Assembly (NCBI GenBank): GCA_020850355.1
Contig: JADZEX010000012.1
Coordinates: 1-64,000 of the forward strand
Direction of reading: 5' to 3'
Length of the DNA stretch: 64,000 bases
DNA from: Fimbriimonadaceae bacterium
Lineage (GTDB): Bacteria > Armatimonadota > UBA10988
The position numbers and the translations under genes are program-made. Within the stretch, counting starts at the first letter, position 1. The number at the start of each line of letters is the position of its first letter. The notes below the pieces were generated by a model. The model was not told the DNA's origin and did no database searches. It saw only the letters and a program-made list of their open reading frames with translations. Shown in pieces: positions 12,684 through 32,998 of this stretch.

Positions 12684-12709
12684 CACCGATCGGCTACAGG
12701 AGTGCGGGG

Positions 12710-15700
12710 ATGGGTGACGGGACAGATCGGATCGCAGCGTTAATTGACGACTCGCGCGACGGGCGGCTTGGCGCCTATGAGAGGGTACCCGACGATCTCT
12801 CCGAGCACCACGGGATTGAGGAGACGGTGCTCGCTGGTGGGTACGGCTACCGGCAGGTCCTGGAGCTGATCCAGAACGCCGCCGACGCCATTTTGGAAGC
12901 GAGCGTCGACGAGCGGAGCGAAGCTTCCGAGCACCGTATTGAGGTCGTACTGGATGGTGACTGGCTGTACGCCGCAAACACGGGTGAGCCGTTTAGCCCA
13001 GATGGCGTCCGGGCACTCTTGTCTTCGCACAGCTCACGCAAGCGAGACATTCAGATTGGGCGCTTCGGACAGGGCTTCAAGTCCCTCCTTAGGCTGGGCG
13101 GCCGGATCGATGTCGTCAGCAACACGGCTGCGTTCGGCTTCGATCCAGTGCGCTGCCGCCGCGAACTCCAGGAGCGTTTCAGGGTCGACCGGGCGCCGGC
13201 GTTGCGGCTGGCCTGGAACCTGGAATCACGATGCGTCGCCCGACTGCGCGAGCGCTTCGAATGGGCCACCACAGTGGTTGCCGCGCAAGTGGTCGGCGAT
13301 GACATCCGGAGCGGCCTGAACCAGGAACTGGAGGGTCTCGCCGCCGAGTTTCTGCTGTTTCTACCGGTCGGTCATCTCACCCTCCTGCTCCAACCCGACG
13401 ACGGCGGACGGAGGGAGATCACGAGGGTGCGGGAGGGTGCCGACCATCTGCTCATCGACGGCGACAAGACCGACCGATGGCGCGTCCACGAGCGGATGAT
13501 CCGCGTCACGGACCAGGCTGCTCTGGACGACGCCACCAGCCTCCATGGCCGGGACGAGGTGCCCGTCTGCTGGGCCGTGCCGATCGAGGCTGGTCGTGAG
13601 GGGGCCGGTCGGTTCTGGGCTGTCTTCCCGACGCAGACCGCGACCCGCCTGCCCGGCATCCTCAATGCGCCCTGGAAGCTGAACAGTGATCGCAGCGCAG
13701 TGATCCCTGGCGAGTGGAATCGCGTTTTGATGTTGGCGGCGGCGGATCTGGTGGTAGAGAGTCTGCCCGCGTGGACATGCGGAGACGATCCAGGCCGCAT
13801 CCTGGATGCGTTTCCCCGCCAACTGGAGCGTGCCGACGAGCCCGCCGCTCCATTGATTGAGGCCGTCTGGCGGCGGTTGGCGGAGGAGCGCGTGGTACCC
13901 GCGGCCACCGGCGAGCTGGCGGCTGGCGCCCACCTGCAGCGGCCGCCCGAGGAGGTGGAGTTGCGCGAACCCGCCCAGCACTGGCAACGCCTCGCCGCGC
14001 CAAGCGAGTTGCAGAAGGTCGTCCATGACTCCTGCTTGACCCGTGACCGCTCCAGCCGCCTGGACGAGCTGGCCAAGCGGCTACCGGGCGAGGCTGCACT
14101 GGTCCCGATGACGGTGGTCGAGTGGTTCCAGATGGTTGCCCACCCAGGAACGGACCGTAGCCGCGAGCTGCTGCGGCTGGCCGACGCTGTTGACGGCAAG
14201 ACCAAAGGGTGTGGGTGGCGGAGCGCCAAGCCGCAGCTCCGGATCATCGCATCAGCCGACGGATCGCTGGTGTGTGCATCCGAGGCGGTCTTCGCGCCGG
14301 CCGAAGCGCCCCTGCCGGACGGTCGCCATGCGGTCGCGCCCGAGTTAGCTGCGGACGACGAGGCCAGGCGAATCCTGCAGGATGTACTGGAGGTACGCGA
14401 TCTCGACTCGCAACAGTGGGTTGACGCGATTGCAGCGAAGCATCCGCAGCGGTGGGCGCAACCAAAGGCGTGGTTGGCGTTCTGGGAACTACTCCGCAGT
14501 GCCCCGCGAGAGGCTGCCCGCGAGGCAGTCCGGCGGCTTGGTGATCCTATCCGGGTCAAGCGACGCGACGGGCAATGGGAACCGGCAACGGAGGTGCTCC
14601 TGCCGGGACGCCTGATCGCGGCCGACGACCAGGAGGGCAATGCCGGGCTCCTGGTCTGCGAGTCCACGCATGGGGCCGATGGCGAGTTGTTGCGTGATTT
14701 GGGCCTTTCCGATGCGCTGGACGGTGTCGTAGCGTGCTCTGGTGGCGAGGCGCCTGGTGGCTGGCTCGACCACCAGCGCACGCTCTACCGCCAGAATGTC
14801 GACAACCGCGCCAGCCGTTTGTACCTGGAACCGGAGGATTGTTCGATGCCTCGCGGCTGGCCTCTGCTGGCGCAACTCAAAGGGCGAGCAGCGGCGGAGG
14901 TTTCAAGGCAGTTCGCCACACTGGTGGATACGGACCATTGCCCTCCGACCGTGCGGTTCAAACACCATACCGAGCCCAAATACCATAAGGTCGACGTGCC
15001 ACATCCTCTCCCTTGGTTGCTGATGCGGCACGGCCAGATGTTGGTAGGCTCCCACACTGTACGCTTGGCGGCCATCCTGGACTGCAGCGACGAACTGCTA
15101 AGCCAGCTCCCGGCTGGTGATTGGGTCCGACCGCTCCGTGTGAGGCTGATCGGCGCCGAGCCGCCGGTGGAGATCTCCGACCAAGACCGCGACCATCTAT
15201 GGACAGCACTGACGGCCTATCTGGCCGCGCCGGAAGCCGTCGCGCAGGACCAACTCCAGGCGCTCTGGGAAGAGGCCGCCACGCACGGTTGGGTGCCACC
15301 AGCGCTGGCGACACCGGGTGGCCCGCAGCCGCTCGACAGGATCTGCGTGACGACTTCGGCCGACCTGGCCCGGCGCGCCTGGCAGCGCGGGGTGCCGGCG
15401 GTCAGCGTTGGCGCACCGACCGAGCAGCTCTGGCTGCAAAACGGTGCCCGTAGGCTGGCCGACCTGCTCCAGCCAAGGTGGGAGGACGACGAGCCGGTCT
15501 GCCGTCTGCTGGAAGTGCTGCCCGAGCTGAGTGCCGTGATCTCGGATGAAATGGCCGACACCGCCCTCTGCCAGGTAGTCAGCGGACTGCAACTAGCCAT
15601 CGATGGACATGTGGATCCGGAGCCCTGCCTCTACCAAGACGACCGGCTGTTGGTCGACCTGGGTCACCTCGAGAAGCTCCCGCGGGCGCAGCGGTCGCGC

Positions 15701-17383
15701 TGCCTGGTGCAGACACTCGCCGGTGCCCGGTGGCTGTCCGGCAGCGAGGATCAAGCGCTTCGCCACCTGGGTGACGAGCAGGTGGAGCGACTTCGGACCG
15801 AGGTGGCGGCGGCGCCGACACTGGAAGAGAAGCTTCTCTGCGCTGCCGGAGGCCGCAGTGAACCACTGCTCGATGCGCTCGGTGAGCTGGGGCAGCGGGC
15901 TGACCTTGCGCGCTGCACGCCCGTTGAGTTGGCCAGGCTGGTGCTGAACCACCATGGGCCGGCGACCCTCCAGGCGATGCGGTCGGCGCTCGACGAGGCT
16001 GGGCTGCGGCCCCCAGATCGTTGGGGTCGCTCAGCGGTCGGCTTCGTGACTGGGCTCGGCTTCCCAGCCGTGTTCGCCGCTTCAGCAAGCAGCCGAAGGG
16101 AGCCGGACGAATGGATTAGTGGGCCAATCGACTTACCACCGCTGCATGACTATCAGGAGGATGTGTACGCCGGTATCGAAGACCTGCTCGCGGCATCCGG
16201 CTGTGCCAGGGCAGTCGTGAGTCTACCGACCGGAGGCGGCAAGACGCGGGTCGTGGTTGAAGCAGCGGTGAAGCTCGTCCTGGCACCAGAGGGGCAACGA
16301 CGACGGGTCCTGTGGATCGCCCAGACCGACGAGCTCTGCGAGCAAGCCGTCGAGGCGTTTCGCCAGGTATGGGTCAACCATGGCGCACAGCGCACCAAGC
16401 TAAGGGTGTACCGGCTGTGGGGCGGGCAGCCCAATCCTGTTTTTGTAGAGCCACAGCAACCGGTAGTCGTTGTGGCTTCGATTCAGACAGTCGACCGACG
16501 CGCCGAGAGCTTGGCTGAGGATCTTCTGTCGGAGGTTGGGTTGCTGGTAGTCGACGAATGTCACCATGCTATCACGGCGAGCTACAGCCGCCTGCTACAC
16601 CGGATCGACAACCATAGTGACTTCGCAGACGGCCCTCCGGTGATCGGCTTGAGTGCGACTCCTTTCCGCGTTGACGAGGATGAGAGCAGGCGGTTGGCGT
16701 CGCGATTCGATAACTGCTGGCTGCCGGCGGACCAGGTTGGGCTATACGCCCGACTACGGGGGCAACGGGTCCTCGCCGAGGCCGTTTACGAGCCCCTGCA
16801 GTCAGAAACGTCTGTGCCCGCAGAGCATCTGACTCGGCTGGCCGAACTACTGGATCAGCCTGAAGGCTTCGAACTCAGACAATTGTTGGAAACTATCAAC
16901 CGTCATTTGGCCGACGATGAGGACCGCAATGAACTGCTCCTGGCTCAGCTCCGTGCAGCGCCTGAGCAGTCAATCCTGTTCTTCGCCAACTCGGTTGGAC
17001 ACGCCGAGGAGATCGCACTGCGCCTGAACTGCGCGGGCACACCGGCGGCGGCGGTCAGTGGCGAGACGCCCGGCCCCTCTCGGCGGTACTTCCTGGAGCG
17101 GTTCGCCCAGCAGGAGATCCGAGTGTTGTGCAACCACACGGTGCTAAGTACCGGTTTCGACTCGCCGAAGACCGATCTTGTGCTCATCGCCCGGCAGGTG
17201 TTCAGCCCAGTGCGGTACATGCAGATGGTGGGCCGCGGGCTCCGCGGCGAGAAGAACGGCGGCACAGCGCGTTGCCGCATCGTGACCGTCCTGGACAACC
17301 TCGGCCGATTCGCCGATCGGCACCCTTACCACTACTGCCAACACTACTTTGCAGACCCGCTGGCGCCTGGGCAACGACGCTGA
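12710..17383 (+). CDS. Sacsin-type GHKL ATPase fused to SF2 DEAD/DEAH helicase
   Basis: A 1557-residue cytoplasmic protein. Residues about 20-200 form an Hsp90-like (GHKL/sacsin) ATPase: N-box ELIQNAADAI, then ANTGEPFSPDGV, then GRFGQGFKS. About 900 residues follow that I cannot assign. From about 1140 there is an SF2 helicase: Walker A LPTGGGKT (about 1175), VVDECHH (about 1278), LSATPF (about 1313), and motif VI MVGRGLRG (about 1505). AGGAG precedes the ATG. It stands alone between two exported-protein genes, with no methylase or nuclease beside it. Its base composition and codon use look visibly less GC-rich than its neighbours, suggesting transfer. GHKL ATPases and SF2 helicases both occur in restriction-like phage-defence systems, so a one-gene defence role is a reasonable inference. 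Repair or chaperone roles are not excluded. Confidence 0.85.
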   Translation: MGDGTDRIAALIDDSRDGRLGAYERVPDDLSEHHGIEETVLAGGYGYRQVLELIQNAADAILEASVDERSEASEHRIEVVLDGDWLYAANTGEPFSPDGVRALLSSHSSRKRDIQIGRFGQGFKSLLRLGGRIDVVSNTAAFGFDPVRCRRELQERFRVDRAPALRLAWNLESRCVARLRERFEWATTVVAAQVVGDDIRSGLNQELEGLAAEFLLFLPVGHLTLLLQPDDGGRREITRVREGADHLLIDGDKTDRWRVHERMIRVTDQAALDDATSLHGRDEVPVCWAVPIEAGREGAGRFWAVFPTQTATRLPGILNAPWKLNSDRSAVIPGEWNRVLMLAAADLVVESLPAWTCGDDPGRILDAFPRQLERADEPAAPLIEAVWRRLAEERVVPAATGELAAGAHLQRPPEEVELREPAQHWQRLAAPSELQKVVHDSCLTRDRSSRLDELAKRLPGEAALVPMTVVEWFQMVAHPGTDRSRELLRLADAVDGKTKGCGWRSAKPQLRIIASADGSLVCASEAVFAPAEAPLPDGRHAVAPELAADDEARRILQDVLEVRDLDSQQWVDAIAAKHPQRWAQPKAWLAFWELLRSAPREAAREAVRRLGDPIRVKRRDGQWEPATEVLLPGRLIAADDQEGNAGLLVCESTHGADGELLRDLGLSDALDGVVACSGGEAPGGWLDHQRTLYRQNVDNRASRLYLEPEDCSMPRGWPLLAQLKGRAAAEVSRQFATLVDTDHCPPTVRFKHHTEPKYHKVDVPHPLPWLLMRHGQMLVGSHTVRLAAILDCSDELLSQLPAGDWVRPLRVRLIGAEPPVEISDQDRDHLWTALTAYLAAPEAVAQDQLQALWEEAATHGWVPPALATPGGPQPLDRICVTTSADLARRAWQRGVPAVSVGAPTEQLWLQNGARRLADLLQPRWEDDEPVCRLLEVLPELSAVISDEMADTALCQVVSGLQLAIDGHVDPEPCLYQDDRLLVDLGHLEKLPRAQRSRCLVQTLAGARWLSGSEDQALRHLGDEQVERLRTEVAAAPTLEEKLLCAAGGRSEPLLDALGELGQRADLARCTPVELARLVLNHHGPATLQAMRSALDEAGLRPPDRWGRSAVGFVTGLGFPAVFAASASSRREPDEWISGPIDLPPLHDYQEDVYAGIEDLLAASGCARAVVSLPTGGGKTRVVVEAAVKLVLAPEGQRRRVLWIAQTDELCEQAVEAFRQVWVNHGAQRTKLRVYRLWGGQPNPVFVEPQQPVVVVASIQTVDRRAESLAEDLLSEVGLLVVDECHHAITASYSRLLHRIDNHSDFADGPPVIGLSATPFRVDEDESRRLASRFDNCWLPADQVGLYARLRGQRVLAEAVYEPLQSETSVPAEHLTRLAELLDQPEGFELRQLLETINRHLADDEDRNELLLAQLRAAPEQSILFFANSVGHAEEIALRLNCAGTPAAAVSGETPGPSRRYFLERFAQQEIRVLCNHTVLSTGFDSPKTDLVLIARQVFSPVRYMQMVGRGLRGEKNGGTARCRIVTVLDNLGRFADRHPYHYCQHYFADPLAPGQRR

Positions 17384-31540: not shown

Positions 31541-32998
31541 ATGCGCATCGACACCCTCGATCTACGCAACTTCCGGCGCTTCGAGCACCTGTCGCTGCGG
31601 CTCGACCCCCACTTCACCCTGCTGATTGGCGACAATGGCCTCGGCAAGACGAGCGTCCTGGAGGCCCTCGCCGTGGCGGCCGGGATCTGGCTGGCCGACG
31701 TCCCGGACCCGTGGCTGGCCGGCAGCAAGCGTCCGATCTGGAAGCACGAGATCCGGCTGCAGCCCATCCGGCAGGCGGATCGCACACTGTTTGTGTCCCA
31801 CCGTCCGGTGGAGGTCAGATCCACTGGTTGCATTGGCGACGAGGAAGTCACCTGGGCGCGGCAGATCCGCGAGACTGGGGAGCGGACGACCAATCTCGAT
31901 GCCAGGGACGCTTTGGCCAAGATCCAGGAAGTCGCCAGACAGGTCAACGCCGGCCAGCCCGTGCTCCGGCCGGTGGTGGCTTACTACGGCGCAGGACGCT
32001 CAGCCTACCACTCCCGCGAACGCAACCAGCGTCTGGCAAACGAAGGCCCGGCGCGACTCTGGGGCGCGTTGTACGACTGCCTCACGGCCCGGATTCGCTT
32101 CCCCGACTTGACCGACTGGTTCCGGCGCGAGGCCGTGGAGCGGGGCAACCGGGCAGGAGCGTGGCGGCCCGGGTTCATGGCCGTCCGCAGGGCCGTGTTG
32201 AACTGCGTGCCGGATGCCGATGATCTGGCGTTCGATGGCGACATGAACCAGATCGTGTTGTCCATCCAGGGCAATGCCCAGCCGTTCGGCAACCTCAGCG
32301 ACGGGCAACGGATGATGGCGGCGATGGTCGCCGACATCGCGATCAAGGCGGTCACCCAGAACGCGCACCTGCTGCCGGCCGAGGCCCTGGATCCGGGTGA
32401 GGAGTTGCCGGCGGTGCTGCGCGAGACGCCGGGCCTGGTGCTGATCGACGAACTCGACGTGCATCTGCACCCGCGCTGGCAGCGCCGCGTGCCAGCCGAC
32501 CTGAAGCGGACGTTCCCCAGTCTGCAGTTCGTCTGCACCACGCACTCGCCCCAGGTGATCGGCGAGCTGCCGCGGGAGCAGGTGCTGGTGCTGAGTGAGC
32601 GCGGGGTGACGCATCCCAGGGTGGCACAAGGGGCGGACTCCAACTGGATCCTCGACTTCGAGATGGACGGCGCCGCGTCGCAGAGCCAGGAAGCGCGAGC
32701 ACTGGTTGAGGCGATCGAACAGGCGATGGGCGACGGCCGGCTGGCTCCGGCTCGCGCCGCCCTCAAGCGGCTGCGGCAAGTGCTGTCCGATGACACGGGC
32801 CAATACGTTCGCCTCGAGGCCAGTCTCGACACCCTGGACTTGCTGTGCGACGAGGACTGCCACGGGGCGGGTGACGATGCGAACAATTGCAAGCGGCCGG
32901 AACCGAGGCTGCTGACTGAGTGGCGAGCAAAGCGTAGCGGCACCGACGCGGTCGACGGATCTCCATTGTGTTACGGCGCCCTACGCAACAACAAGTAA
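31541..32998 (+). CDS. ptuA: PtuA-like AAA ATPase (Septu type), frame-fused to ptuB start
   Basis: A 485-residue ORF whose first 445 or so residues are an ABC/SMC-like ATPase of the PtuA type, the ATPase of the two-gene Septu anti-phage system. Walker A is GDNGLGKTS (about residue 30), the signature is NLSDGQRMM (about 250), Walker B is LVLIDELDVHLHPRWQ (about 300), and the H-loop region is CTTHSPQVIGEL. The last 37 or so residues (KRPEPRLLTEWRAKRS onward) do not belong to PtuA: they match the start of the HNH partner PtuB (TIGR02646-type). A one-base loss near 32889 would explain this. The native PtuA stop would then be the TGA at 32917-32919. The ATPase itself looks intact, but it has a foreign tail and no working partner. 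Confidence 0.8.
   Translation: MRIDTLDLRNFRRFEHLSLRLDPHFTLLIGDNGLGKTSVLEALAVAAGIWLADVPDPWLAGSKRPIWKHEIRLQPIRQADRTLFVSHRPVEVRSTGCIGDEEVTWARQIRETGERTTNLDARDALAKIQEVARQVNAGQPVLRPVVAYYGAGRSAYHSRERNQRLANEGPARLWGALYDCLTARIRFPDLTDWFRREAVERGNRAGAWRPGFMAVRRAVLNCVPDADDLAFDGDMNQIVLSIQGNAQPFGNLSDGQRMMAAMVADIAIKAVTQNAHLLPAEALDPGEELPAVLRETPGLVLIDELDVHLHPRWQRRVPADLKRTFPSLQFVCTTHSPQVIGELPREQVLVLSERGVTHPRVAQGADSNWILDFEMDGAASQSQEARALVEAIEQAMGDGRLAPARAALKRLRQVLSDDTGQYVRLEASLDTLDLLCDEDCHGAGDDANNCKRPEPRLLTEWRAKRSGTDAVDGSPLCYGALRNNK

Follow-up and report, generated by a model that had tools for sequence, protein, structure and literature searches.

A sacsin/Hsp90-type ATPase fused to an SF2 helicase in a Fimbriimonadaceae bacterium: a predicted anti-phage protein with relatives in DISARM-like operons

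The fusion gene and its domains

The stretch analysed here, in the following referred to as the window, comprises 64,000 nucleotides of contig JADZEX010000012.1 from a Fimbriimonadaceae bacterium (Armatimonadota; assembly GCA_020850355.1). It contains an open reading frame (ORF) on the forward strand, 12710-17383, which runs over 1557 codons without interruption and joins an N-terminal sacsin/Hsp90-type ATPase of the GHKL class to a C-terminal superfamily 2 (SF2) helicase. The gene is very probably a phage-defence gene, because its relatives sit in known anti-virus clusters, usually beside two core genes of the defence island system associated with restriction-modification (DISARM), and a general defence role of the family is well supported by sequence comparison. 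Going further, we predict, with somewhat better than even confidence, that the protein is a horizontally acquired anti-phage (anti-foreign-DNA) protein, which acts as a two-motor sensor and remodeller of DNA without a nuclease of its own. The features of the gene, all on the forward strand, are the following.

12698..12702, forward: ribosome-binding site AGGAG, 7 nt 5' of the ATG, read from the sequence as a consensus match only
12710..17383, forward: sacsin/Hsp90-type ATPase–SF2 helicase fusion gene, 1557 amino acids (aa), intact ORF
12710..14089, forward: TmtA-like module resembling the N-terminal and middle domains of Hsp90, residues ~1-460 with approximate limit (PADLOC, Foldseek; predicted local distance difference test score, pLDDT, mostly >90)
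12848..13150, forward: sacsin-type GHKL ATP-binding core, residues 47-147 (P_loop_sacsin above cut-off, conservation, profile matches in the PDB)
14090..15739, forward: mixed alpha/beta region of repeated short strand-strand-helix units, residues ~461-1010 (AlphaFold2 pLDDT mostly 76-96)
15740..16084, forward: all-helical pre-helicase domain, residues ~1011-1125 (AlphaFold2 models, starts of tblastn matches)
16142..17257, forward: RadD-like SF2 helicase core, residues 1145-1516 (Pfam, NCBIfam RadD, Foldseek)
16226..16246, forward: helicase Walker A PTGGGKT, residues 1173-1179 (invariant positions in 42 homologs)
16553..16567, forward: helicase Walker B DECHH, residues 1282-1286 (D1282, E1283 and H1285 invariant in 42 homologs)
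17222..17248, forward: helicase motif VI QMVGRGLRG, residues 1505-1513 (invariant positions in 42 homologs)

An earlier, sequence-only reading of this DNA had described two intact ATP-driven domains within a single 1557-residue protein, and this description was confirmed in full, since all motifs quoted there are present in the translation and conserved throughout the family. At the N-terminus the NCBIfam model P_loop_sacsin matches residues 48-134 with 61.6 bits (cut-off 50), the Pfam SACS match at residues 47-147 stays below threshold, and the profile of this part matches sacsin and Hsp90 chains in the PDB. The GHKL elements (E..N..D, xNxG, GRFGxGFK) are all intact as E52, N56 and D59, N90/G92, and G117-R-F-G-x-G122-x-K124, all of them conserved to at least 90% across 42-45 homologs. 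The C-terminal part is covered by the Pfam domains ResIII, DEAD and Helicase_C at residues 1145-1516 (E = 4e-19, 3e-14 and 1e-11, respectively) and has intact motifs I, II, III (SATPF) and VI, with P1173, T1174, G1175, G1177, K1178 and T1179 of Walker A and Q1505, G1508, R1509, G1510, R1512 and G1513 of motif VI being invariant. Given this invariance in the helicase and the high conservation of the GHKL elements, both motors can be assumed to be under constraint family-wide. The helical domain in front of the helicase is common to some stand-alone helicase relatives, whose tblastn matches start at residues 1024-1103.

About 900 residues between the two motors had been left unassigned before, with the suggestion to look there for a hidden nuclease or target-binding domain. 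AlphaFold2 models were made for residues 1-1140 from 45 homologs (mean pLDDT 88.9, predicted template modelling score, pTM, 0.58) and for residues 1030-1557 from 42 homologs (mean pLDDT 85.7, pTM 0.84). Foldseek against the PDB gave only members of the Hsp90 family among the best 50 matches listed for the former, and RadD (6jde, 7r7j, 8h5y) as best matches for the latter, with RIG-I-like helicases and SauUSI, a restriction enzyme, ranking next. The first part of the middle region is therefore no longer unassigned but Hsp90-like by fold, whereas the remainder, residues ~461-1010, is well predicted and contains no Pfam or NCBIfam domain and no recognised enzyme. No nuclease was found by domain profiles and structure prediction, as residues 150-1140 match no Pfam or NCBIfam nuclease and no fold outside the Hsp90 family among the best 50 matches listed. 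Few polar residues are invariant among 45 homologs in the stretch 461-1010, and invariant acidic or basic ones do not cluster in it; because of this and the lack of a known domain a conserved nuclease site is unlikely there, judged from the sequences; a nuclease of novel fold may be present within residues 150-1140.

Homologs of the fusion and their operons

Scanning 84,980 species genomes with conserved-peptide patterns taken from an alignment yielded 588 matches to the patterns and no fewer than 318 related stretches, and the best 80 of these yielded the 79 loci to which the counts below refer. No homolog was found by a single-sequence scan of the genome contigs and viral contigs or by the alignment-based scan of the viral contigs, and tblastn against plasmids and phages gave no full-length homolog and mostly helicase-only matches. 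According to gene calling and BLAST, nearly all readable complete loci among the 79 encode the same fusion of about 1500-1690 aa with both halves, and these originate from Proteobacteria, Verrucomicrobia, Actinobacteria, Acidobacteria and Chloroflexi. Since more than 55 complete, independent ORFs share this length and domain order, the ORF in the window is neither a chance frame nor a mis-join. In a quick gene tree, for which only support values of the Shimodaira-Hasegawa-like approximate likelihood ratio test (SH-aLRT) were computed and the deepest forks of which are weak, the homologs fall into two main groups, clade I, to which the window protein belongs, and clade II.

In clade II the fusion is part of an operon of fixed order, in which it is followed by a UvrD/GajB-like helicase gene typically 6-50 bp downstream, by drmA at about +1.8 kb and by drmB at about +5.0 kb. 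Both Drm genes were detected in 32 loci, out of 44 in clade II and out of 40 with usable flanks (more than 8 kb in total), and representatives match the PADLOC models with E = 3e-235 for DrmA and 7e-68 for DrmB. The UvrD-like gene matches GajB (E = 6e-27); it was counted by tblastn, as the Louvain cluster labelled UvrD also mixes in unrelated proteins from L052, L078 and L094. A C5-methyltransferase matching type II and DrmMII models was found in 18 clade II loci by one query and in 30 of 41 by clustering. The DISARM core of DrmA, DrmB and a methyltransferase in the operon of the fusion is thus present in clade II and missing for the window copy. PADLOC defines DISARM type I by DrmA, DrmB, DrmC, DrmD and DrmMI, and type II by DrmA, DrmB, DrmC, DrmE and DrmMII (PMC9252829). 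DrmC, DrmD and DrmE had no match among the families listed for representatives of the fusion, the UvrD and NERD helicases, the methyltransferase and four flanking families, with the best 25 matches each for UvrD helicase and methyltransferase, and so the DrmC and DrmE of type II were not recovered from the clade II operons within this scope. As DISARM occurs in 3.5% of genomes according to a recent review (PMC12926258), finding DrmA beside half of the sampled loci is far beyond chance, for a sample that is taxonomically unbalanced and has no formal control. A third DISARM-like operon type, consisting of methyltransferase, fusion, UvrD-like helicase, DrmA, DrmB and sometimes a NERD helicase, without DrmC, DrmD or DrmE, is probably the main home of the family. 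That the fusion is the signature subunit of this type, while the sister clade with the window protein represents a solitary form or a portable add-on to bacteriophage exclusion (BREX), type I or type III restriction-modification (R-M) systems, is a proposal to which we give a little less than an even chance.

Two further arrangements were observed in this family. Actinobacterial loci (L111, L118, L121, L123-L127, L131) carry PDC-M33A/C-like genes (helix-turn-helix plus unknown) upstream of the fusion, and L047, L103, L113, L117 and L128 encode Arthrobacter-type sacsin proteins of ~1117 aa without helicase, in the operon order DNA methyltransferase – sacsin protein – GHKL-type ATPase – PD-(D/E)XK – Z1. 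The latter proteins nest among the fusions on the tree, which suggests loss of the helicase and gain of a new set of partners.

The partners in clade I are variable. A recognised partner was detected by tblastn in 19 of 32 loci, one of which (L091) counts by a weak methyltransferase match only, and the overlapping sets comprise DrmA/DrmB (6), PDC-S68 (7), the BREX proteins PglX/PglZ/BrxL (3), HsdM (3) and a NERD helicase (7). In type I R-M loci the fusion lies between hsdM and hsdS; in L067 its stop overlaps the start of hsdS, in L063 hsdM, PDC-S68, fusion and hsdS are almost abutting, and in L086 the frames of fusion and PDC-S68 overlap, which suggests co-translation. PDC-S68, which resembles RecD and is a candidate single-gene defence protein, adjoins the fusion in L063, L076, L078, L086, L090, L094 and L095 in several orientations, and both may form a two-gene system. 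Within the closest group of the window protein, L063, L066, L067 and L085 lie in defence operons, with LmuA plus a type III R-M pair in L066, a PDC-M32A gene in L085 and a PDC-S15 gene in L063; L062, L068 and L070 have too little flank for a judgement. Tabulating the neighbours of homologs, as had been suggested before, strongly supports a defence role by their placement in DrmA/DrmB, BREX and R-M operons. The idea of a one-gene system does not hold for most homologs, which are subunits beside DrmA/DrmB or lie inside BREX and R-M operons, but could apply to the window copy and a few solitary members of its clade.

The fusion gene was very probably acquired horizontally, as far as sequence data can tell. 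In the tree, phyla are mixed, and the window protein belongs to a group of 13 (SH-aLRT 99) together with homologs of Beta-, Gamma-, Delta- and Alphaproteobacteria, of Verrucomicrobia and of G181, the only other one among 291 genomes of the phylum with an ortholog. This ortholog (L052:8220 to about 12890) matches the window protein in two pieces of 42% and 55% identity and has a frameshift near residue 1237, which is either an assembly error or real decay. The helicase half of the window protein is 60-65% identical to several proteobacterial homologs versus 55% to that of the same phylum. Compared with the other larger genes of the window, the fusion gene has a GC content of 0.657 (mean 0.713, sd 0.024) and a GC content at third codon positions (GC3) of 0.753 (mean 0.897, sd 0.030), and its codon-usage divergence is the largest of 23 genes compared, despite its being among the longest. 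The lower GC content that had been noticed by eye was thus confirmed by GC, GC3 and codon usage. From the mixed phyla, the closer proteobacterial helicase halves and the atypical composition, lateral transfer is the best reading; the tree, the composition and the presence in just two of the 291 genomes contradict a core gene that is passed on vertically next to repair genes.

The window copy stands alone, as had been stated earlier. Its neighbours encode an SbcC-like ATPase (~8 kb upstream), an M20 peptidase, a Glu/Leu dehydrogenase and a large ORF without Pfam match, and beyond these a LamG/beta-helix protein, a TIM barrel and an aminotransferase, so that ordinary metabolic or exported proteins lie on both sides and no defence gene was found among the neighbours in the window. 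Neither DrmA/DrmB, which DISARM type I would require, nor Dnd/Pbe genes were found near it. Direct repeats or marks of insertion elements around the gene were not found except for a weak 21-bp pair upstream, and a synteny comparison with genomes of the same family gave no result, as the flanking genes are too diverged. Elsewhere in the window (31541-32998, forward strand) an AAA ATPase related to PtuA of Septu/retron Ec78 is encoded (NCBIfam E = 4e-55, below cut-off), which looks orphan because an HNH partner gene would not fit into the 268 bp up to the next gene called.

Proposed function and alternative explanations

For the mode of action we propose that the SF2 helicase would load on incoming DNA and translocate along it, and that the Hsp90/sacsin-type ATPase would then close as an ATP-driven clamp or conformational switch, thereby stabilising the complex and recruiting or activating an effector. 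The same operon would, in most relatives, supply this effector and the partners that mark self DNA, namely DrmA/DrmB, the UvrD-like helicase and the C5-methyltransferase, or subunits of BREX or type I R-M systems. Since the gene is solitary in the window, this copy would act alone, blocking foreign DNA by translocation and protein remodelling, or would serve a modification system elsewhere in the genome. DNA as substrate, the clamp behaviour and the activity of a solitary copy are all inferred, by analogy with the reasoning published for MORC/paraMORC and SFII-helicase loci (PMC2292703). The proposal fits the DISARM core, in which the ATPase-driven DrmAB complex binds DNA with 5' overhangs (PMC9142583).

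Several observations weigh against this reading. No partner lies near the window copy, and within its closest group also G181, L064, L065 and L071 have ordinary surroundings. RIG-I, MDA5 and Dicer helicases match the helicase fold as well, so that an RNA substrate is conceivable, and the percentages obtained from the best 80 stretches are not population frequencies. The solitary position would also be explained if the protein were an accessory subunit acting in trans, idle by itself and working with a modification system encoded elsewhere, for which a class 1 DISARM locus in the same genome (G000:C69:6000-34423; L149, L151) is an obvious candidate. It matches DrmD and DrmMI (E = 0 each), DrmA (8e-263) and DrmC (8e-63), contains DrmB by BLAST to DrmB-family proteins and, by eye, also an HD-domain-like gene, and the occurrence of relatives within DrmA/DrmB, BREX and R-M operons would agree with such a role. 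However, this locus belongs to a class that has its own DrmD helicase and is defined without the fusion. Moreover, DrmA was found in only 4 of 19 genomes with a window-clade fusion and has no match in the other 15, some of which are incomplete, although this count hardly discriminates, since 7 of 14 control genomes are matched by the DrmA model as well. Overall, action in trans is rather unlikely. Still somewhat less probable is that the gene is a remnant of a multi-gene defence operon that lost its partners and is now drifting. Most relatives do have partners, and the frameshifted ortholog of G181 could be seen as an example of decay, but its break may be an assembly error, the ORF in the window is intact with all motifs kept, and the solitary L064, L065 and L071 are also intact full-length ORFs.

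Two explanations consider the protein as a member of a family already named, and both are far weaker. Membership in Tiamat, the single-gene TmtA system, is improbable. Among the PADLOC families TmtA scores best (E = 6e-41), and the N-terminal sacsin/Hsp90-like module is indeed shared, from residue 6 to ~418 and up to 631. However, the best stretch ends at residues 124-632 in every member tested and at or before position 720 of profiles that are 1063-1782 positions long, and the remainder of the fusion, notably the SF2 helicase, is never matched. As the models stop at residue 632 or before, full TmtA identity was rejected. A vertically inherited RadD-type DNA-repair helicase with an added chaperone domain is the least probable of all and hardly to be expected. 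RadD (YejH) is the best-scoring helicase family and the closest solved helicase in sequence and fold, and the SbcC-like ATPase upstream might point to repair, but RadD lacks the 1100-residue N-terminal part, and the match to the equivalog NF053632 (NCBIfam E = 8e-33) reaches 113.5 bits against a cut-off of 720. This low score, the homologs in defence operons, the patchy occurrence in the phylum and the atypical codon usage disfavour RadD-type repair. The reading we prefer is the horizontally acquired two-motor defence protein.

Relation to known defence systems

The clade II operons share with DISARM strong DrmA and DrmB, often a C5-methyltransferase, and one apparent transcription unit with the fusion. 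They differ in that DrmC, DrmD and DrmE had no match among the operon genes scanned, with the fusion and the UvrD/GajB-like helicase standing in for them, and the window copy differs by having neither DrmA nor DrmB. That GHKL ATPases and SF2 helicases recur in restriction-like loci, as the sequence-only reading stated, was described already in 2008 by Iyer, Abhiman and Aravind for MORC/paraMORC and SFII helicases (PMC2292703). In these laterally mobile loci, too, GHKL ATPases are functionally coupled with SF2 helicases and DNA methylases, and the ideas of DNA looping and complex remodelling put forward for them could be applied to the fusion (PMC2292703). There, however, the two activities are mainly encoded by adjacent genes, whereas in the fusion a sacsin-type ATPase and a RadD-like helicase share a single chain that is often encoded in a DrmA/DrmB operon, and sacsin is not mentioned in the text of that paper (PMC2292703). 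The helicase domain further matches PbeA of phosphorothioation (Dnd/DUF4007) loci with E = 1e-15 to 2e-29, where stand-alone helicase relatives adjoin a separate GHKL-type ATPase and a PLD gene. In contrast to the fusion, helicase and GHKL protein are separate genes in these loci, the latter is not of the sacsin type, and PbeA matches the helicase core only, with positions 261-620 of 672 aligned instead of the full length.

Such unfused arrangements were also found among the related loci. The stand-alone helicase relatives in L054, L055, L056, L050 and L051 lie in Dnd-like loci (DUF4007, phosphoadenosine phosphosulfate (PAPS) reductase, ATPase) with a GHKL-type gene next to them, followed by a PLD gene in several. 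L053 (G092:C48) encodes a 580-aa helicase with 40% identity to the C-terminal part of the fusion together with DrmA, DrmB, DrmMII and a separate 734-aa protein with a GHKL-type N-terminal sequence, which makes it an unfused equivalent. Since the pairing recurs as separate genes in both settings, a functional tie between helicase and GHKL ATPase can be assumed.

No paper linking DISARM with sacsin or GHKL was found in the literature searched. The earlier statement that no named system consists of this fusion alone is true of the libraries searched, and has to be restricted in that the N-terminal 400-630 residues are common to TmtA and the helicase to PbeA and RadD. The family is therefore best filed as a variant within the defence theme of GHKL ATPase, SF2 helicase and DNA modification. 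If our reading is correct, a widespread DISARM-like system, which the PADLOC definitions of types I and II would leave unnamed, would gain a defining subunit, and a single motor protein would move between DISARM-like, BREX and R-M operons. This would be a concrete case for an exchangeable ATP-driven DNA-handling module across modification-linked defences, and the sacsin/Hsp90-type ATPase of Tiamat, which is poorly understood, would be linked to defence by DNA handling, beyond protein folding alone.
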